A stretch of 33,289 nt of DNA from Chloroflexota bacterium (lineage in GTDB: Bacteria > Chloroflexota > Dehalococcoidia > Lucifugimonadales > Australimonadaceae), in contig JADFQE010000015.1 in assembly GCA_022561985.1 (NCBI GenBank), forward strand, positions 1-33,289, in the 5' to 3' direction. Positions 3,314 through 33,289 of the stretch are shown piece by piece. The stretch's first letter is position 1. Every line of letters begins with the position of its first letter. The notes below the pieces were generated by a model. The model did no database searches. It was not told where the DNA came from and saw nothing but the letters and a program-made list of their open reading frames with translations. A program made the position numbers and the translations under genes.

Positions 3314-5950
3314 TTAGCGCTTCTTCTCGCCGCCCGAAGCACCGTCCGGCTCGCCGTCACCGTCGGGGGCCGGCTCGTCGTCCGATGGGAGCTCCAGCGC
3401 AAGCTGCGGGTTCTCGGGCTCGTCGCCGTTCGTGCCGCTCTTGGCGGCCTTGGTGGTCTTGCGGGCGGGCGCCTTGGACGGCTCCTCCTGCTCCTTCTCC
3501 CACGAGCGCTCCTTGAACGCGCTCATGGAGATCACCTGGTCGTCCGGCGCGAGCTTGTTCATGACCTGCACGCCCTGGGTGTTGCGCCCGAGGGTGCGGA
3601 TCTCCTTGATGTGCGTGCGGTAGACCATCGCCTTGGCGGAGCCGACCATGATCTCCTCGACGTCCTCGGCCGTGACCACCGCCGCGGCCAGTGGGCCTGT
3701 TTTGTCCATGATCTTGAGCGCGATCACGCCCTGGACGCCGCGGCCGGTCTTGCGGAAGTGGTCGACCAGCGTGCGCTTGCCGTAGCCGCGCTCCGTGAGC
3801 ACCAGGAGCTGCGCGCCCGGCGTGGCCACGTCCATGCCGATGACCTCGTCCTTGTCGATCAGCCGGATGCCGCGGACGCCGCCGGCGCCCCGGGTGGCGC
3901 GCACGCGGACCTCGTCGAGGGCGAAGTGCACGGCCTTGCCGTTGCGCGTCACCATGATGACCGTCATGTCCGGGTCGGCGAGGCGCGCGCCCAGGAGCGA
4001 GTCGCCCTTGTTGAGGTCGAAGGCCGCGAGCCCGTTGCGCCTGATGTTGGCGAACTGGCTGAGCGCCATCCGCTTGACCTCGCCCTTGCGCGTCGCCATG
4101 AAGATGTACTTGTCGACGGTCAGGTCCGTGATGGGCACGACAGCCGTGACCGTCTCCTCGGCGGCGTTCATCGCGATGAGGTTCTGGATCGGCGTGCCGC
4201 GCGTCTGCCTGGTCGCGTCCTGAGCGATGTTGAAGACGCGCTCGCGGTAGACGCGGCCGCGGTCCGTGAAGAAGAGCAGCCAGTCGTGCGTCTCGCAGAC
4301 CACGAGCTGCTGGATCGCGTCCCCCTCGCGGGTCTGCTGGCCGCGGACGCCCTTCCCCCCGCGGTGCTGGAGGTGGTACGCCTCGATGGGCAGCCGCTTG
4401 AGGTAGCCGCGGTCGCTCAAGGTCACGACCGCGTCGCCGCGGGCGACCAGGTCCTCCATCGAGTAGTCGCGGGCCTCCTCGGTCGTTATCCTCGTGCGGC
4501 GGGGCTGCCCGAAGTTCTTGCGGAGCTCGGCCGTCTCGGCCTTGATGACCTCGAGCACCTGGCCCGGGTCGCCGAGCAGCCCCTCGAGCCCACCGATGGT
4601 CTTCGTCAGCTCCTGGTACTCGTTCTCGATGCGCTCGCGCTCGAGGGCGGCGAGGCGCCGCAGCTGCATGTCCAGGATCGCCTGGGCCTGGACCTCGGTG
4701 AGTCCGAACTGCTCCATGAGGCCGTTGCGCGCCGCCTCGGCGTCCTTCGACGCCCGGATCAGCACGATGACCGCATCGAGGTTCTCGAGCGCCACGCGCA
4801 AGCCTTCGAGGACGTGCGCCCGCTCGCGTGCCCGGGTCAGGTCGTATTCGGCGCGGCGCCGGATCACCGTCCGGCGGAAGTCGATGAAGTGCTGCAGGGC
4901 CGGCTTGAGGCTCAGCACCCGCGGCTGGCCGTCCACGAGGGCGACCATGTTGACGTGGAACGCGCTCTGGAGCGAGGTGTGCTTGTAGAGGTTGTTCAGC
5001 ACCTGCTCGGGCATCGTGCCCCGCTGCAGCTCCACCACCACGCGCATCCCGTCGCGGTCCGACTCGTCGCGGACCTCGGAGATGCCGGTGATCTTCTTGT
5101 CCTTCGAGAGCATGGCGATCTTCGCGACCATGGTCGCCTTGTTCACCTGGAACGGGAGCTCGTTGATCACGATGCGCTGGTGCCCGCCGCGCTCGACCTC
5201 CTCGATGACCGCCTTGCCGCGCACGACGACCCGGCCGTGGCCGGTGTGGTACGCCTGCTGGATGCCCTCGGTGCCCATGATGATGCCGGCGGTGGGGAAG
5301 TCCGGGCCTTTGACGAACTGGATGAGATCGTCGACGGTGGCGTCGGCGTGGTCCACGAGGTAGGTGATCGCGTCGCAGAGCTCGTTCAGGTTGTGGGGAG
5401 GGATGTTGGTGGCCATGCCCACCGCGATGCCCGATGCGCCGTTGGCCAGCAGGTTGGGCAGCCGCGCCGGGAGCACCGTCGGCTCGCGCTGGGAGCCGTC
5501 GTAGTTGTCGACGAAGTCGACGGTCTCGCGGTCGATGTCGGTCAGCATCGCGTCGGCGATGCGGGCGAGGCGCGCCTCCGTGTACCGCATCGCGGCCGGC
5601 GGGTCGTCGTCGACCGAGCCGAAGTTGCCCTGGCCGTCGATGAGCGGGTGGCGCAGCGAGAAGTCCTGCGCCATGCGGACGAGAGCGTCGTAGACGGGCG
5701 CGTCGCCGTGGGGGTGGTACTTGCCGAGCACCTCGCCGACGACGGCCGCGCACTTCTTGTGGGCGGAGCCCGGCCGGAGGCCCATGCCGTGCATCGCGTA
5801 GAGGATGCGGCGCTGCACCGGCTTCATGCCGTCGCGCACGTCGGGGAGGGCGCGCGCGACGATCACGCTCATGGCGTAATCGAGATACGCGGTCCGCATC
5901 TCGTCTTCGATGCGGACGACCCGGATATTGCCGCCGCTAGCCAGAACCAT
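3314..5950 (-). CDS. gyrA: DNA gyrase subunit A
   Basis: GyrA is the breakage-reunion subunit of DNA gyrase. The catalytic tyrosine lies in [10 protein letters not shown] (Tyr123 counted from the start used here), and the C-terminal wrapping domain keeps the GyrA box as QHRGGKG, which separates it from ParC. Four to six beta-pinwheel blades follow (for example [10 protein letters not shown] and [11 protein letters not shown]), then an acidic tail of about 60 residues. I prefer the ATG at 5950 over 5959 because AAGGA sits 8 bases before 5950 but directly abuts 5959. In the quinolone-determining region [15 protein letters not shown] the position of E. coli Ser83 is Ala, while Asp87 is retained. 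The antisense 806-aa ORF on the plus strand is a shadow. Confidence 0.97.
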
Positions 5951-6085
5951 AAGCGACATCCTTGGGGGCGAATGAAGCGGGCGGGTGGAGCGTCCGCACT
6001 ATGCCTCTCGGAGGCTCCGCGATGTTACTAGATGTTGTGGGATAACGACTTCGCACGCCGATATGTACCAGGATTACCGCCTGCG

Positions 6086-6091
6086 ATTATA
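6086..6091 (-). promoter_or_regulatory. extended -10 box upstream of gyrA
   Basis: The minus strand reads CTGC-TATAAT, an extended -10 element, inside a palindrome (CGCCTGC-GATTATA-GCAGGCG on the plus strand, 6079-6099). It would leave a leader of about 130 nt before gyrA, which contains a small GCCTC-CGA-GAGGC stem at 6003-6015. No -35 is recognisable; the upstream bases are alternating GC. Confidence 0.45.
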
Positions 6092-6130
6092 GCAGGCGCG
6101 CGCGCGTGCGCATAGCGCTCGGCGGCCCAC

Positions 6131-6835
6131 TTAGGGCATGTCCCCCGCGTCGAAGCGGCCCGACCAGCCAACGAGCCAGTCGAAGAGCTTCCGGAAGCTC
6201 TTGGGCACCTCGCTCTCGCGCTCCGGGTGGCACTGCACGCCCACCAGCCACGGGTGCGCGGGGCTCTCGATGGCCTCGACGATGCCGTCTTGGGGATGGA
6301 ACGCCGAGGCCATCAGCCCCGGCGCGCGCTGCGCCTCCTTCAGCCCCTGATGGTGGAGGCTGTTGGTGCGGTAGACGGCACCCGCGCCGATGATGGCCCC
6401 GAGCTTGCTGCCGGGCGCGACGTAGACCTCGTGCCGCACCGACCCGTCGTTGTCGCCGCCGGGCTCGACGTGCCCCGGTATGTCCTGGAGCAGCGTGCCG
6501 CCGAAGGCGACGTTGATGAGCTGCATGCCGCGGCAGATGCCCAGCACGGGCATGTTGCGATCGAGCGCATCCCGCAGCAACCCCAGCTCCATCTCGTCGC
6601 GCCGGGGGTCGGTCTCGCCCGTCGCGGGGTCGCGCTCGGCGCCGTAGCGCGACGGCTCGACATCGTACCCACCGCACAGCAGCAGCCCCGAGACGCCACG
6701 CATGGCCTCGTCCACGCCCTCGAAGTGCTCCGGCGTGAGCACGCGCGCCTCGCCCCCGCGCGCGGCGAGCGCATCGACGTACGGCTGCGCCTCGCGCTCG
6801 CTCGTGGCCGTGACGGCGATCAGCGGCAAGGGCAC
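6131..6835 (-). CDS. class-I glutamine amidotransferase-like / PuuD-type gamma-glutamyl hydrolase
   Basis: The about 234-aa protein belongs to peptidase family C26 (gamma-glutamyl-GABA hydrolase PuuD and relatives). The nucleophile elbow is GICRGMQLINVAFGG, and the catalytic His-Glu pair is in GVQCHPERE near the C-terminus; LLCGGYDVEPSRYG is the usual oxyanion region. The natural substrate is not known. The start is peculiar: the only in-frame candidates before PLIAVTATSERE are GTG at 6835 and TTG at 6829, both inside the mini-hairpin of a dispersed repeat (6827-6843), and no Shine-Dalgarno is visible. The repeat seems to have replaced the original 5' end. It lies downstream of the DRTGG gene on the same strand with about 100 bp between. 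Confidence 0.85.
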   Translation of the reverse strand: MPLPLIAVTATSEREAQPYVDALAARGGEARVLTPEHFEGVDEAMRGVSGLLLCGGYDVEPSRYGAERDPATGETDPRRDEMELGLLRDALDRNMPVLGICRGMQLINVAFGGTLLQDIPGHVEPGGDNDGSVRHEVYVAPGSKLGAIIGAGAVYRTNSLHHQGLKEAQRAPGLMASAFHPQDGIVEAIESPAHPWLVGVQCHPERESEVPKSFRKLFDWLVGWSGRFDAGDMP

Positions 6836-6935: not shown

Positions 6936-7970
6936 TCACGTGCTTCTCGAAGCCCTGGCCCGCCGGCGGCTTTGCTTCGCCGGGGCGAGCCGGCCGGCCA
7001 GGGCGTCGAGGTCCACGCTCCGCTCCACCATCTCGGTGAAACGCTCGATCTTCTCCGGGTGGTGCACCGTGACCGTCCCGGCGAGCGCTTCGAGCGCCTC
7101 GGCCGTCTCGTGCGTGTCGCGCTCGAGGGTGAGCAGCGGCACGTCGAGGGCTTCGGCGCGCTGGGCGACGTAGGCGGGCGGCTGCGCACACCCCGTCAGC
7201 ACGAGCGCGTTCAGCGGGAAGTTGAGCGCGGCCATCCCGATATCGGCACGCCCACCGCGCGCGATGACCGCCTGGTTGGGCAGCCGGTTGAAGTAGTTGC
7301 CCCCCCACTCGGTGACGAGGCCGCCGATGAGGAAGTGCTCGATGAGCCGGTCGAGGCCCGAGCGGCCCGCGAACAGCCTGGCCCCCAGCAGGTCCACGAC
7401 TTGGCGGACCGTCGGCGCGAGCATCAGCCGCTCCTCCGGCAGCACGGCGATCACGCTCGCGCCCGCTGCCTCAAGCTCCGGCACCAGCCGGTCGGCGGCG
7501 TCCCGCTCCGCGTAGCGCGTCCGTCGGTTGAGCACGAACCCGACGAGCGCGTCGCCGTAGGCCTCGCGCCAGGCCGCCACCGAGGCCGCGCCGAGGCTCC
7601 GCTCGTACGGCAGCACGCCGACGACCGCCGCCTTGAGCCGCTTGACCAGCGCGCCGGAGGCGGCCACGACGCTCCCGTCCGCACGGGCGAGCGGCGGCGC
7701 GTCCACGACGACGACCTCGGCTGTTTCCTCCAGCGCGCCGACGCGTTTCGCAGCCGCGGCCAGCACGGGCCGCTTCACCTTGCCATCCGGGCTCACGATG
7801 CCCGGTCCCTCCACCGCGAGCAGCGCCGCGTCGGCGTCGCCATCGGCGAGCGCCAGCGGCTTGTCGACGGCTGCCTTGCGTCCGGCGTGCCGCCAGGCGG
7901 CCGCCAGCGACGCGGCAACGGCCGTGCTGCCCACGCCGGGACGCGCGCCCACCACACACAGGACCGTCAT
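6936..7970 (-). CDS. BioD-like P-loop / DRTGG-domain protein with degenerate Walker A
   Basis: The 344-aa protein has an N-terminal BioD/CobB-like nucleotide-binding domain (MTVLCVVGARPGVGST; VVVVDAPPL) and a C-terminal DRTGG-like domain related to the regulatory half of some phosphotransacetylases (VIARGGRADIGMAALNF, then LVLTGCAQPP). Such stand-alone proteins usually have no known function; a sensor or phosphoacyl-metabolism role is only a guess. The Walker A motif reads GARPGVGST, so the invariant Lys before S/T is replaced by Ser, suggesting loss or change of ATP hydrolysis. The start is ATG at 7970, with an extended -10 box 36 bases upstream. It is divergent from the MFS gene. Confidence 0.75.
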   Translation of the reverse strand: MTVLCVVGARPGVGSTAVAASLAAAWRHAGRKAAVDKPLALADGDADAALLAVEGPGIVSPDGKVKRPVLAAAAKRVGALEETAEVVVVDAPPLARADGSVVAASGALVKRLKAAVVGVLPYERSLGAASVAAWREAYGDALVGFVLNRRTRYAERDAADRLVPELEAAGASVIAVLPEERLMLAPTVRQVVDLLGARLFAGRSGLDRLIEHFLIGGLVTEWGGNYFNRLPNQAVIARGGRADIGMAALNFPLNALVLTGCAQPPAYVAQRAEALDVPLLTLERDTHETAEALEALAGTVTVHHPEKIERFTEMVERSVDLDALAGRLAPAKQSRRRARASRST

Positions 7971-8005
7971 CGAGCCTCCCCGCCGTCGTCCATCGCCACG
8001 CGGCG

Positions 8006-8011
8006 ATTATA
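8006..8011 (-). promoter_or_regulatory. extended -10 box of the DRTGG gene
   Basis: The minus strand reads TTGC-TATAAT, a perfect -10 hexamer with the extended TGn element, 35 bases before the ATG at 7970. No -35 match lies 16-18 bases upstream. Confidence 0.55.
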
Positions 8012-8022
8012 GCAATGGCCGG

Positions 8023-8039
8023 GGGGAGGGAGCCTCCCC
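8023..8039. promoter_or_regulatory. palindrome between divergent promoters
   Basis: GGGGAGG-GAG-CCTCCCC is a perfect 7-bp inverted repeat with a 3-base centre, placed between the -10 boxes of the DRTGG gene (minus) and the MFS gene (plus). Its position suits an operator for both genes, but no regulator is identified and GC-rich palindromes are common here. Confidence 0.3.
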
Positions 8040-8059
8040 AGAGGCACCGGCACATTCGC

Positions 8060-8065
8060 TAGAAT
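8060..8065 (+). promoter_or_regulatory. -10 box of the MFS gene
   Basis: TAGAAT lies 71 bases before the MFS start codon. It resembles the TAGAAT boxes before rplU and argS. No -35 is evident. Confidence 0.4.
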
Positions 8066-8136
8066 CGGGGCAGCCGCGCGCCCGCCCCGGCTCCGCGGGC
8101 ACCGGGGCCACGAACAGCCCTCGCAGGAGCATCCCG

Positions 8137-9420
8137 ATGTGGGAAACACGACCCAACCCATCCGTGCGATGGGTCCAATTGTCACTGCTGCTCGTCCTCA
8201 CGGCCTTCCTCGGCGCGATGTGGGGGATCGAGCGCACGACGCTGCCGCTGATGGCCGAGAGCGAGTTCGGCATCACGTCGGCGGCGGTCACCCTCTCGTT
8301 CGTGGCCGGATTCGGGCTGACCAAGGCTTTCGCGAACCTCTTCGCCGGCGGCCTCATGGACCGGATCGGGCGGCGGCGGGTGCTCATGCTGGGATGGGCG
8401 GCGGGGTTGCCCGTGCCGCTGCTCATCATCTGGGCACCGTCGTGGGAGTGGGTCGTCGCGGCCAACCTCCTGCTCGGCGTCAACCAGGGGTTGGGCTGGA
8501 CCGCCACGATCCTCATGATGATGGACATCATGGGCCCCCGCCGCCGTGGCCTTTCCACGGGGCTGAACGAGTTCGCCGGCTACAGCGGCGTTGCCGCTCT
8601 CACGTTGATCGCCGGACTGCTCGCCGCCGCCTACGCGCCCCGGCCCTACCCCTTCTTGATCGGTATCGTCCTCGCGGTGCTGGGCCTCGTGATCTCCGCC
8701 GTCTGGGTGGCGGAGACGCGGGAGCGCGCACACGAAGAGGCGGCGAGCGCTCCGCGGCCGGCGCCGGCACCGAGCTTCCTGACGACCTTCGTGGCAGGCG
8801 CCCGGGACCGCGTGCTGCTGAGCTACGGACAGGCCGGGCTCGTGACCAAGATCAACGACGCTGCTGTGTGGGGGCTCCTCCCGCTCTTCCTGGCCAGCCA
8901 GGGGGTCGGCGCCGCCCAGATCGGCATCGTCGCAACGGTGTACCCGCAGGTGTGGGGCGTGGGCCAGCTGCTCAGCGGCTTCCTGGGAGACCGCATCGGC
9001 CGCAAGCCGCTCATCGTCTGGGGCATGGTGCTCCAGGGGCTGGGGATCTGGGCCCTCGCCGTCGCCGACGGCCTGCTGGAGCGTGTGGCGGGCGCCGCCC
9101 TCCTCGGACTGGGCACGGCGGCCGTGTACCCGACGCTGATCGCCGCCGTCGGCGACTACGCACCGCCCCTGCGGCGCGCCTCCGCGGTCGGCGTCTACCG
9201 GTGGTACCGGGACGCCGGTCTCATCGCGGGGGCCGTCGGCGGTGGACTGCTGGCCGACCAGTTGGGGTTCCGCTCGGCCTTCTTGGTCATCGGGGGGCTC
9301 AGTGTGGTTTCGGCGGTGTTCGTTGCCATCGCCACGGTCGAGCCGGCAGGCGCGCCGAGCGTTGAGGCCAGACAACAGCCACATGACGGCCCACCGTACC
9401 GCGAAGACACTGCGCTATAA
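8137..9420 (+). CDS. major facilitator superfamily transporter
   Basis: The 427-aa inner-membrane protein has about twelve hydrophobic segments. The MFS signature between helices 2 and 3 reads GGLMDRIGRRRVLMLGW, and its echo in the second half is GFLGDRIGRKPLIVWGM. The start is ATG at 8137 (MWETRPNPSVRW) with AGGAG 7 bases upstream; the longer 595-aa frame in the ORF track is the same frame extended into the antisense of the DRTGG gene. Substrate is unknown; the overall look is that of sugar/drug-type MFS permeases. The TAA stop (9418-9420) lies inside the TATAAT box of thrB. Confidence 0.9.
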   Translation: MWETRPNPSVRWVQLSLLLVLTAFLGAMWGIERTTLPLMAESEFGITSAAVTLSFVAGFGLTKAFANLFAGGLMDRIGRRRVLMLGWAAGLPVPLLIIWAPSWEWVVAANLLLGVNQGLGWTATILMMMDIMGPRRRGLSTGLNEFAGYSGVAALTLIAGLLAAAYAPRPYPFLIGIVLAVLGLVISAVWVAETRERAHEEAASAPRPAPAPSFLTTFVAGARDRVLLSYGQAGLVTKINDAAVWGLLPLFLASQGVGAAQIGIVATVYPQVWGVGQLLSGFLGDRIGRKPLIVWGMVLQGLGIWALAVADGLLERVAGAALLGLGTAAVYPTLIAAVGDYAPPLRRASAVGVYRWYRDAGLIAGAVGGGLLADQLGFRSAFLVIGGLSVVSAVFVAIATVEPAGAPSVEARQQPHDGPPYREDTAL

Positions 9421-29900: not shown

Positions 29901-31574
29901 ATGCTCATCCGCGAGGTCATCACCCAGCGCATCGCCGATGCGATCACAGCCGCGCAGCAGCAGGGCGCGCTGCCCGCCTTCGATGTCCCGGACGTCGCGC
30001 TCGACCGGCCGCAGGACCCGGAGCACGGCGACTTCGCCAGCTCGCTGCCCCTGCGGCTCGCCAAGCAGGCGCGCATGGCCCCGCTGGCCATCGCCGAGGC
30101 GCTCGTGCCGCACGTCGCGGCGGGCGACCCGATCGATCGCGTGTGGGCCGCGCCGCCCGGCTTCCTGAACGTGGCGCTGAGCCCGGCGTGGCTCCAGCGG
30201 CAGGTGGACGACGTGCTCGCGCAGGGCGAGGCTTTCGGGAACACGAGCACGGGCAAAGGCCGCAGCGTGCAGGTCGAGTTCGTCAGCGTGAACCCGACGG
30301 GCCCGGTCCACGTCGGCCACGCCCGCGGCGCGGTGCTCGGCAGCACGCTCGCCAACACGCTCGCGGCGGCCGGCTTCGACGTCACGCGCGAGTACTACGT
30401 GAACGACGCCGGCACGCAGATGGAGATCTTCTACGCGTCGGTGTTCGCGCGGTACGCCCAGGCGCTCGGCCGGGCCGACGAGCAGATCCCGGAGGACGGC
30501 TACCGCGGCGACTACCTGGTCGTCCTGGGCAAGGAGCTTGCGGCGGAGCACGGCGACCGCTTCTTGAGCATGGAGCGCAAGCAGGCGGTGGCCGAGCTCG
30601 GCGCGGCCGGTCTGGAGCGCATGCTCGATGGCATCCGCACCGACCTCGCGCGCATCGGCGTCGAGTTCGACGTCTGGTTCCGCGAGCGCTCGCTGTTCGA
30701 GAGCGGGCAGTACGACGCGGCCATCGCCGAGCTGGAGGGGCGCGGGGCGACCGTCCAGCGGGACGGCGCGCTCTGGTTCACCTCCGCGGCGCTGGGGGAC
30801 GACAAGGACAACGTGCTCGTCCGCAGCACGGGGCAGCCGACGTACTTCGCGTCGGACATCGCCTACCACCGCAACAAGTTCGAGGAGCGCAGCTTCGACC
30901 GCGTCATCGACATCTGGGGCGCCGACCACCAGGGCCACGTCACGCGCATGAAGACGGCGATGCGGGCGCTCGGGATCGACCCGGAGCGGCTGCACATCAT
31001 CATCTCCCAGCTCGTCACGCTGCGCCAAGGCGGCGATCGGGTCCGCGCCTCCAAGCGCACGGGGCAGATCGTGACGCTCTCCGACCTGGTGGACGAGGTC
31101 GGGGCCGATGCCTGCCGCTACTTCTTCCTGGCGCGCGCGGCCGAGAGCCAGATGGACTTCGACCTGGAGCTCGCGAAGAAGGAGTCGGGCGACAACCCGG
31201 TCTACTACGTGCAGTACGCGCACGCGCGCATCGCGGGCATCCTGCGGCAGGCGAAGGAGCGCAGCGTGCGCTGGGACGACGGCGACCCGTCGCTGCTCGT
31301 CGACGACGCGGAGCTCGCGCTCATCCGCAAGATGCTGCTGCTGCCCGAGCACGTCGAGTCGATCGCGATGACGCTGGCGCCCCACGCGCTGCCGCACTAC
31401 GCCGCCGAGCTGGCGACGGCGTTCCACTGGTTCTACGACCGCTGCCGCGTGCTGTCGGCCGAGCCGGCCGAGGCGCCGCTGATGAAGGCGCGCCTCAAGC
31501 TCGTCGAGGCCGCGAAGACGGTCCTCGCCCGCACGCTCGGCCTCATGGGCATGTCCGCACCGGAGACGATGTAG
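29901..31574 (+). CDS. argS: arginyl-tRNA synthetase
   Basis: ArgRS charges tRNA-Arg with arginine. The 557-aa class I enzyme has an N-terminal arginyl-tRNA additional domain (HGDFASSLPLRLAKQ), the HIGH signature as GPVHVGHARGAVLG near residue 137, a catalytic-domain segment IDIWGADHQGHVTRM, the degenerate KMSKS region VRASKRTGQIVTL near 380, and a C-terminal DALR anticodon domain (NPVYYVQYAHARIAGILRQA to the end MGMSAPETM). Length is typical. The ATG at 29901 lies 6 bases after a -10 box, so the message may be leaderless. Confidence 0.97.
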   Translation: MLIREVITQRIADAITAAQQQGALPAFDVPDVALDRPQDPEHGDFASSLPLRLAKQARMAPLAIAEALVPHVAAGDPIDRVWAAPPGFLNVALSPAWLQRQVDDVLAQGEAFGNTSTGKGRSVQVEFVSVNPTGPVHVGHARGAVLGSTLANTLAAAGFDVTREYYVNDAGTQMEIFYASVFARYAQALGRADEQIPEDGYRGDYLVVLGKELAAEHGDRFLSMERKQAVAELGAAGLERMLDGIRTDLARIGVEFDVWFRERSLFESGQYDAAIAELEGRGATVQRDGALWFTSAALGDDKDNVLVRSTGQPTYFASDIAYHRNKFEERSFDRVIDIWGADHQGHVTRMKTAMRALGIDPERLHIIISQLVTLRQGGDRVRASKRTGQIVTLSDLVDEVGADACRYFFLARAAESQMDFDLELAKKESGDNPVYYVQYAHARIAGILRQAKERSVRWDDGDPSLLVDDAELALIRKMLLLPEHVESIAMTLAPHALPHYAAELATAFHWFYDRCRVLSAEPAEAPLMKARLKLVEAAKTVLARTLGLMGMSAPETM

Positions 31575-31620
31575 GCAGGAGTCCAGCAAGATACCGAGGG
31601 ATGTGAAGCGGAGGTTCGCC

Positions 31621-31968
31621 ATGGCGGAGGGGCAAGAGCAATCCTGGCGTGAGCGAGGGAAGGAAGCCGCTCGTCGAGCGACTGAGCCCCTGACCACGGC
31701 GGCTGACGCCATATCGGGTCGGGGCATTGAGAAAGAGGTTGCTCAGTACTCCGAAGTATTTACCCAAGTGGCTCTCGGGCTTCACGAAGACCTGACGGCG
31801 GCCACCAGACAGATCGGCGAACTGGAATCGGCTGTTGCCGAGCTGAGGGTCGCGCAGAGGTCGCGGGATCGATCACTGTCTCGACTGACGAGGATCTCCG
31901 TTGCCGTCGTGGGCGCACTGGCCATAGCGGTCGCGGCACTTGGCGTGGGGACATGGGCAACGATCTAG
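31621..31968 (+). CDS. small coiled-coil membrane protein, unknown
   Basis: I do not recognise this 115-aa protein. The N-terminus is charged (QEQSWRERGKEAARRATE), residues about 55-88 form a likely coiled coil (EDLTAATRQIGELESAVAEL), and a single C-terminal transmembrane helix follows (ISVAVVGALAIAVAALGVG), so the protein is probably tail-anchored with the coiled coil in the cytoplasm. The ATG at 31621 has GGAGG 6 bases upstream. Its end overlaps the next gene by 16 bases, so the two are coupled. GC content and codons (ATA, TTT) differ from argS, hinting at transfer. Confidence 0.7.
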   Translation: MAEGQEQSWRERGKEAARRATEPLTTAADAISGRGIEKEVAQYSEVFTQVALGLHEDLTAATRQIGELESAVAELRVAQRSRDRSLSRLTRISVAVVGALAIAVAALGVGTWATI

Positions 31969-32924
31969 ACGAAGTACGCAACCACTACGTGGACCTGTAT
32001 GGCGAGGCCGTTCGCTCGGCAAGCCGGCTGCAGGAGTTGCACGACCACTACGGACGCCGCTCCGAAGCGTCGCTGCTCGACGCGATCACGGCGACAACGG
32101 CGCTTGACGCGTTCTTTCTGAGCGACCAGGTGGACCTGGGACAGGTCACGCCGCAGATGCGAAGGGCGTTTGCACTGGCTTTCCCCAACAAGTCGCTCAG
32201 TGATCTCAACGATCTGTCGCCCGAATCCGCGAAGGGTTGGCTGGCCGCGTGGAAGGGGAAATTCTTTGAGGTAGTGGTCGAGGACAAGCTCAACGCGGGA
32301 GAGCAGGTCGGTGATCTCCGCCTTGGGCTCGGTCAGATAGCGAGGCTCGCCGACAGCCCCACCCAGCCCGGGTTCGACCTCGAAATCGTCAACAGCGACG
32401 GGAACATCGACCAGCCGCGACAACTCAAGGCAACGGAGAGCCTTGGCTACGTCAAGAAAGCGTTAGAAACGTATCCGGGCATAAGAGTCCCTGCCACGGC
32501 GGAAGCGGCGAGCGACCAGCTAGACGCCATCGTTAACAGCGGCATCGGGGACGAGGCTATCGACGGACAGGTTGCGGCGCCCTTGGCGGACTTGCTCGAC
32601 AACGCCATCAAAGAGTTATTCGAGAACATCGCACCGGGTCTGCCGTTTGTCCTCATCGCCACAACGGAGGGAGCCCGGGTTCTGATGGGCCGTCAGACCT
32701 TTCAGCAGGGAGTGGAGCGCGCATTGCGGCGAGGAACCAGGACGGGGGTGGCGATGAGTGCCGGTGCCCTAGCTGCTCTCGCCGGCGCAGGCGTGCTGAG
32801 CCTCCCGGTTGCGTCCTTAACGCGGTTGGGCATGGATCGGCACCAGATTGGCTCCACCTTGATCCGGAAGCTTCGCTCAGACCGTGCGCAACTTGAACCG
32901 CTACAGGCTCGATCCGATCGCTGA
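31953..32924 (+). CDS. predicted PD-(D/E)XK-nuclease-like protein, unknown
   Basis: The 323-aa protein is not a family I can name. The middle contains KGKFFEVVVEDKLNAGE (E106/E110), GFDLEIVNSDG (D142) and RQLKATES (Q157-x-K159), spaced like the E...D...QxK active site of PD-(D/E)XK nucleases. Two-thirds in, LPFVLIATTEGARVL precedes a small-residue hydrophobic stretch (GVAMSAGALAALAGAGVLSL) that may insert in a membrane, and the end is Arg-rich. The ATG 31953 overlaps the coiled-coil gene by 16 bases. Lower GC and rarer codons (TTA, ATA) than the neighbours suggest the pair was acquired. A nuclease role is inference only; the fold is unverified. Confidence 0.65.
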   Translation: MGNDLDEVRNHYVDLYGEAVRSASRLQELHDHYGRRSEASLLDAITATTALDAFFLSDQVDLGQVTPQMRRAFALAFPNKSLSDLNDLSPESAKGWLAAWKGKFFEVVVEDKLNAGEQVGDLRLGLGQIARLADSPTQPGFDLEIVNSDGNIDQPRQLKATESLGYVKKALETYPGIRVPATAEAASDQLDAIVNSGIGDEAIDGQVAAPLADLLDNAIKELFENIAPGLPFVLIATTEGARVLMGRQTFQQGVERALRRGTRTGVAMSAGALAALAGAGVLSLPVASLTRLGMDRHQIGSTLIRKLRSDRAQLEPLQARSDR

Positions 32925-32935
32925 GCGCGGGGCTC

Positions 32936-33289
32936 CTACCCCTTCGTGACGCGGAAGAAGCGGCGGCGGCCCACCCGGACGACGGCGCCATAGGGCACCG
33001 TCGCCTCACGCTCGGTGAGCGCCTCGCCGCTCAGCGCTACGGCGCCCTGGGTCAGCAGCCGGCCCGCCTGGGCGGCGCTCGGCGCCAGGGCGTTCGCGGC
33101 CAGGAAGCGCGGCAGGTCCAATCGCACGTCCTCGGCCCCCACGGCGAGCACGCCCGCGTCGCCCGCGTGGACCTCGATCGACTGCACGTCCGCCGGCGCC
33201 TCGCCCCCCTGCACCACGCGCTCGAACCCGGCCTGCGCGGCGGCGGCGGCGGCGGGCGAATGGAACCACGACACCATCTCGACGCCAAG
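32936..33289 (-). CDS. tyrS: tyrosyl-tRNA synthetase, C-terminal part
   Basis: This is the 3' end of a gene that enters from the right edge (minus strand; 117 codons visible, TGA-side stop at 32936). LGVEMVSWFHSPAAAAAAQ is the end of the catalytic/anticodon part, and LPRFLAANALAPSAAQAGRL with GAVVRVGRRRFFRV is the S4 RNA-binding domain that recognises tRNA-Tyr. The HIGH and KMSKS motifs lie outside the window. It converges with the unknown cassette 11 bases away. Confidence 0.85.
   Translation of the reverse strand, partial: LGVEMVSWFHSPAAAAAAQAGFERVVQGGEAPADVQSIEVHAGDAGVLAVGAEDVRLDLPRFLAANALAPSAAQAGRLLTQGAVALSGEALTEREATVPYGAVVRVGRRRFFRVTKG

Follow-up and report, generated by a model that had tools for sequence, protein, structure and literature searches.

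Membrane-bound nucleases are an established principle of anti-phage defence. In SNIPE (PD-lambda-1), which acts during genome injection, a membrane anchor holds the toxic nuclease close to the site of injection and away from the host chromosome (PMC13190303). Further candidates are found among the PDCs of PADLOC, which are putative, come from a guilt-by-embedding approach and are mostly without experimental validation (PMC12988326).

The window (the whole stretch of DNA that was analysed) is one complete contig of 33,289 bases from a Chloroflexota genome of 2.39 Mb. It carries a cassette of two co-directed genes, here called A and B, between argS and the convergent 3' end of tyrS. Protein B matches two PADLOC PDC-M72B profiles (PDLC04784, E-value: 3.8e-11; PDLC04785, E-value: 1.3e-9). 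These profiles match 18 of the 19 aligned members of the B family, and B is the component that the window and these relatives have in common with PDC-M72. A preliminary description of the locus had recognised no family. This statement does not stand, as B falls in PDC-M72B, an unvalidated candidate defence family; the same match bears out the comparison with anti-phage modules that the description had drawn. The family is already known as a candidate, and the cassette is a variant of that putative defence candidate. A literature search on PDC-M72 found nothing, and a phage assay of PDC-M72B was likewise not found. Window A has no match among the PDC models, and neither window A nor any of the scanned partner genes matches PDC-M72A (a model whose existence is taken from the naming). 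The alphaproteobacterial partner resembles PDC-M09A instead, and the Chloroflexota B proteins are longer, with a hydrophobic C-terminal region past the matched part.

The likeness of the cassette to SNIPE is one of principle only, namely the tethering of a nuclease to the inner membrane. In SNIPE, GIY-YIG and DUF4041 domains are combined in a single protein, whereas the cassette consists of two genes and its nuclease is predicted to have a different fold; neither GIY-YIG nor DUF4041 was found by Pfam in B or its relatives. Mrr-type restriction endonucleases (PF04471) share with B the E...D...QxK triad, in its QxK variant and in register, but the window cassette differs from them in the hydrophobic C-terminus of B and in the predicted membrane-anchored partner A. 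Protein A weakly matches ZorA of Zorya (E-value: 0.019), probably through its coiled-coil composition. Unlike Zorya, A is a single small, putatively tail-anchored coiled coil with no MotA/ExbB-type Pfam match, and no other Zorya gene lies beside it.

Gene organization and nuclease signature

The argS gene ends at 31574, upstream of the cassette, and tyrS lies downstream on the minus strand (ORF end at 32936), where only its 3' end is present, cut by the contig end. The ORF of gene A extends from a GTG at 31603 (alternative start) to 31968; its true start is probably the ATG at 31621, giving a protein of 115 aa. The two ORFs were recovered as the overlapping pair reported earlier, with 16 bp shared (Table 1). 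In relatives, the overlap reaches at most 17 bp, and where A and B do not overlap the gap is no longer than 54 bp. The lower GC content noticed in the preliminary description was likewise confirmed, at 63.2% for A and 62.3% for B compared to about 70-75% for the preceding genes. Relative to sister species, both A and B show dN/dS values of 0.19-0.38. Because this indicates purifying selection, A and B can be regarded as real coding genes, and it is nearly certain that they are both coding and paired.

Table 1. Coordinates of the A-B cassette and its features in the window
Feature	Position	Strand	Description or basis
Gene A	31621..31968	+	115-aa coiled-coil protein with predicted C-terminal membrane anchor
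Predicted tail-anchor transmembrane segment of A, residues 92-110, ISVAVVGALAIAVAALGVG	31894..31950	+	KD mean 2.44
A/B overlap, 16 bp	31953..31968	+	ORF coordinates
Gene B	31953..32924	+	323-aa PD-(D/E)XK-type putative nuclease, PADLOC PDC-M72B-like
Putative PD-(D/E)XK core of B, about residues 90-180	32220..32492	+	Invariant residues, in-register Mrr profile alignment
E106 codon (KGKFFE)	32268..32270	+	Invariant in 19; kept in all 29 aligned
D142 codon (PGFDLEI)	32376..32378	+	Invariant in 19; kept in all 29 aligned
Q157-L158-K159 codons (QLK)	32421..32429	+	Invariant in 19; Q.K in distant branches
Gly/Ala-rich hydrophobic C-terminal segment of B, putatively membrane-associated, residues 262-290	32736..32822	+	KD 1.86 at 266-284; hydrophobic peaks in relatives

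Five residues of B (E106, D142, Q157, L158 and K159) are all invariant in an alignment of 19 B proteins, the other members of which are 30-87% identical to window B. A wider alignment (n=29), which adds a distant branch (G507, G021 and G331) and a plasmid/phage branch, shows the E/D/QxK pattern in 10 more distant B proteins as well; QVK replaces QLK in one distant branch. The residues singled out in the preliminary description were therefore found at the positions given there, and their invariance in 19 proteins shows that they are conserved and not a product of chance. The residues required in the PD-(D/E)XK superfamily (E, D and (D/E/Q)xK) occur in this order in B, and, as judged from the aligned proteins, the E...D...QxK arrangement is a PD-(D/E)XK signature in the QxK variant known from Mrr. 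B is likely to be a PD-(D/E)XK-type nuclease.

In a profile-profile comparison of B with 28 Mrr domains, the E, D and QxK residues were in register. The hhalign scores for this pairing (18.7-19.3; P 0.014-0.027) lie above every control, although narrowly (best control 18.6). One distant B protein matches the Pfam domain Mrr_cat (E-value: 0.022; 15.3 bits, under the curated cut-off of 21), and window B has no match to Mrr (PF04471) above the Pfam cut-off. Profile searches of Pfam, PHROGs and NCBIfam gave nothing significant for B, and neither B nor the B family profile found a relevant match among PDB sequences. At the level of sequence, the likeness of B to Mrr is weak. Two AlphaFold runs with B, based on shallow alignments (5 and 8 rows), gave pLDDT values of 38.6 and 49.7. 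The second model, with its low mean pLDDT of 49.7, contains a helix, three strands, a helix and a short strand, which is the order of the expected alpha-beta-beta-beta-alpha-beta core but, at this confidence, is neither proof of that core nor evidence against it; Foldseek with this model found no meaningful match.

At one relative locus (L038, positions 7509-9029), B is duplicated in tandem within a single 506-aa ORF. The first copy has lost QLK (METSIDAAN) and the second copy keeps the motif.

Partner protein A and putative membrane association

The conserved core of A reads eFTEa.T.v.vGLH.D...L..r...LE in 17 aligned proteins. The Chloroflexota A proteins are short coiled coils, most of which end in a predicted transmembrane segment and some of which lack one. 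Searches of Pfam, PHROGs and NCBIfam with A gave coiled-coil noise only (e.g. PspA, E-value: 4e-4). A coiled-coil, tail-anchored membrane partner and a hydrophobic C-terminal stretch in B had both been proposed for this locus, and the hydropathy values in Table 1 agree with these proposals, although the glycine-rich segments of B may be soluble helices instead.

The adjacency of A and B is kept in three branches despite their differing A proteins. In the distant branch, A has another core (ERVKFW..QD.IN.ELIPRVI) and is still a coiled coil with a C-terminal anchor; one B protein of this branch matches Pfam Gly-zipper_Omp in its C-terminal part (E-value: 1.2e-4). In the plasmid/phage branch, A is larger, rich in glycine zippers and PDC-M09A-like where scanned, and B is shorter. 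In Yoonia, A and B are fused into one protein. Because the B motif is kept while A differs across branches, the nuclease core is constant and the partner exchanged. In nearly every pair, at least one of the two proteins has a hydrophobic or glycine-zipper segment, and on the basis of this hydrophobicity the cassette proteins are probably associated with the membrane.

Distribution and genomic context

Of 250 genomes from the same order, 17 contain B, which was not detected in the other 233. It also occurs in further genomes of the phylum, in two alphaproteobacterial plasmids and in five IMG/VR contigs; a tblastn search of an annotated phage collection gave no match for window B or for Sulfitobacter B. 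In the window genus, the pair adjoins tyrS in all three sampled species. Upstream of the cassette, the window has argS but the other two species have leuS, and DNA similarity within the genus starts at the beginning of A. Other genera of the family have unrelated genes after tyrS and no significant remnants of A or B.

In another family, three species of one genus carry the cassette in the trpG-trpD interval. The junction is empty in three sister species, where only a few tens of bases separate the two genes, and TrpD identity to a carrier is 90-91% for two of the empty-site species compared to 87-89% for other carriers. In this genus, B is 53-66% identical and A 43% identical between carriers, in contrast to 87-90% for TrpD and TrpG. 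In a further family, the cassette lies between trpD and trpC. In the B tree, the trpG|trpD and trpD|trpC copies fall into different halves, both well supported, and they are separate insertions. The B trees cross bacterial families, and in one genus two species have B proteins in two different halves. Multiple cassettes occur in at least two genomes, and cassette GC content is below the mean of the flanking genes at 17 of 18 loci. The accessory, mobile character suggested at the outset is upheld by this patchy occurrence, the empty sites, the course of the B tree and the low GC content. Universal vertical conservation with the same neighbours is ruled out by the distribution and the empty sites, and the cassette is horizontally exchanged.

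By inspection, cassette sites are strikingly often next to genes for amino acid biosynthesis or tRNA synthetases: ilvD, trp (twice independently), cysK-like and argS/leuS/tyrS (L033, L034-L036, L042, L038 and the window). A literature search on defence genes in the tryptophan operon found nothing. In the genome of locus L036, which carries A-B between trpG and trpD, the part of the trp operon that directly precedes trpG also holds a type II restriction-modification pair (4556-6257), consisting of a PaeR7I-like restriction endonuclease (E-value: 7e-67) and a methyltransferase.

A reverse-strand position among tail genes is one where prophage cargo that guards the host from other phages is commonly found. 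In four viral contigs, the A-B pair lies inside tail-gene clusters, on the strand opposite to the tail genes. At the two alphaproteobacterial plasmid loci and on a first, prophage-like contig, the neighbours include genes of known or candidate defence systems, namely HEC-05 (E-value: 4e-218), UzuA (E-value: 3e-58) and QatC (E-value: 7e-52). Defence neighbours were found at 4 of 17 Chloroflexota loci (restriction-modification at two loci, AbiE and HEC-05-like). However, 17 control regions, taken from some of the same genomes, also gave matches, to Kiwa, type I restriction-modification specificity and MzaA, and the comparison of 120 neighbour genes with 104 control genes showed no defence-gene enrichment near Chloroflexota cassettes. 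A defence-island setting for the window's branch was therefore dropped. Phage contigs L140 (2622-3002) and L143 (4169-4630) carry, as read by eye, PIN-domain-like and thermonuclease-like genes in the tail region on the same strand as A-B.

Candidate function and alternative explanations

The reading that we favour, with moderate confidence, is that A-B is a mobile, membrane-tethered nuclease cassette that attacks incoming phage DNA. We infer DNA as the substrate, the membrane as the location, binding between A and B, a trigger and an anti-phage outcome, and of these the anti-phage role itself seems reasonably probable. The proposed model is as follows. B would be a QxK-type (Mrr-like) PD-(D/E)XK nuclease acting at the inner membrane, where A and the glycine-rich hydrophobic C-terminus of B itself would tether it. 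A would be a small coiled-coil, tail-anchored partner that serves as an anchor and possibly as a sensor or brake. The likely mode would be the cutting of incoming phage DNA near the membrane; alternatively, the nuclease could be freed when infection perturbs the membrane or A. Action at the point of DNA entry is a tentative part of this model. The faster divergence of A would suit a phage-facing part.

The strongest rival is a toxin-antitoxin or addiction module, in which a self-toxic nuclease B is restrained by A and kills cells that lose the pair, with defence at most secondary. The arrangement of a small upstream and a large downstream gene, mostly with a 4-17 bp overlap, fits such a module, as does the patchy, mobile occurrence of A-B, which extends to plasmids and prophages. 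However, A is a coiled coil, often with a predicted membrane anchor, in which Pfam finds no antitoxin-like DNA-binding domain, a fused A-B exists, and the clean absence of the pair from the same site in sister species argues against strong addiction; on balance this explanation is rather unlikely. An effector/immunity pair acting between competing bacteria, which the preliminary description had suggested, would also pair a probable nuclease with a small membrane protein in a unit of two genes. This suggestion was not borne out: Pfam and NCBIfam show B to have no domain for delivery or secretion and none of polymorphic toxins, and A and B stay in one operon with no secretion locus recognised alongside at the loci that were read. 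We consider it highly improbable.

A role in host housekeeping tied to the operon (e.g. envelope-linked DNA repair or DNA uptake, with no anti-phage role) would account for the tight fit of the cassette within trp operons and beside tRNA-synthetase genes, its presence in three of three sampled species of the window genus and the purifying selection on both genes. The 233 of 250 genomes of the order in which the cassette was not detected speak against such a role, as do the variation of the host operon by lineage, the sister species that keep the operon without the cassette and the occurrence of relatives as phage cargo. Because of this patchiness and the empty sites, a housekeeping role is unlikely. 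It is also conceivable that B retains its fold and has lost catalysis, serving as a nucleic acid-binding scaffold. One duplicated relative (G507) does have a degenerate extra B copy without QLK, but QLK is intact in its second copy and all other aligned proteins have the triad, which makes a scaffold role improbable.

If the reading of A-B as a membrane-tethered anti-phage nuclease is correct, it would supply a mechanism for the candidate family PDC-M72B and would connect the cargo genes of prophages with the chromosomal cassettes of Chloroflexota. A membrane-held B would be a second, structurally unrelated answer to the problem solved by SNIPE, that of cutting phage DNA at entry while sparing the chromosome. 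A more speculative extension, to which we give little weight, is that there are membrane-tethered, Mrr-like nuclease defence cassettes that are translationally coupled inside amino acid biosynthesis and tRNA-synthetase operons, outside defence islands, perhaps tying defence expression to amino acid supply. Defence genes could then hide in housekeeping operons and not in islands, and island-based searches would miss such cassettes.

The sequences flanking the cassette in the window genus have features of their own. Within tyrS, window positions 33184-33288 match contig C57 (L060, 2380-2484) over 105 bp at 99%, and beyond this match C57 has a different tyrS 3' end; the contig end in tyrS is likely a chimeric or strain-mixed join. 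In the sister species, leuS beside the cassette is a mosaic (L002, 1-2617, and L003, 1000-4000), with mostly about 60-80% DNA identity first and then about 87-97%, which suggests either recombination or a MAG artefact.
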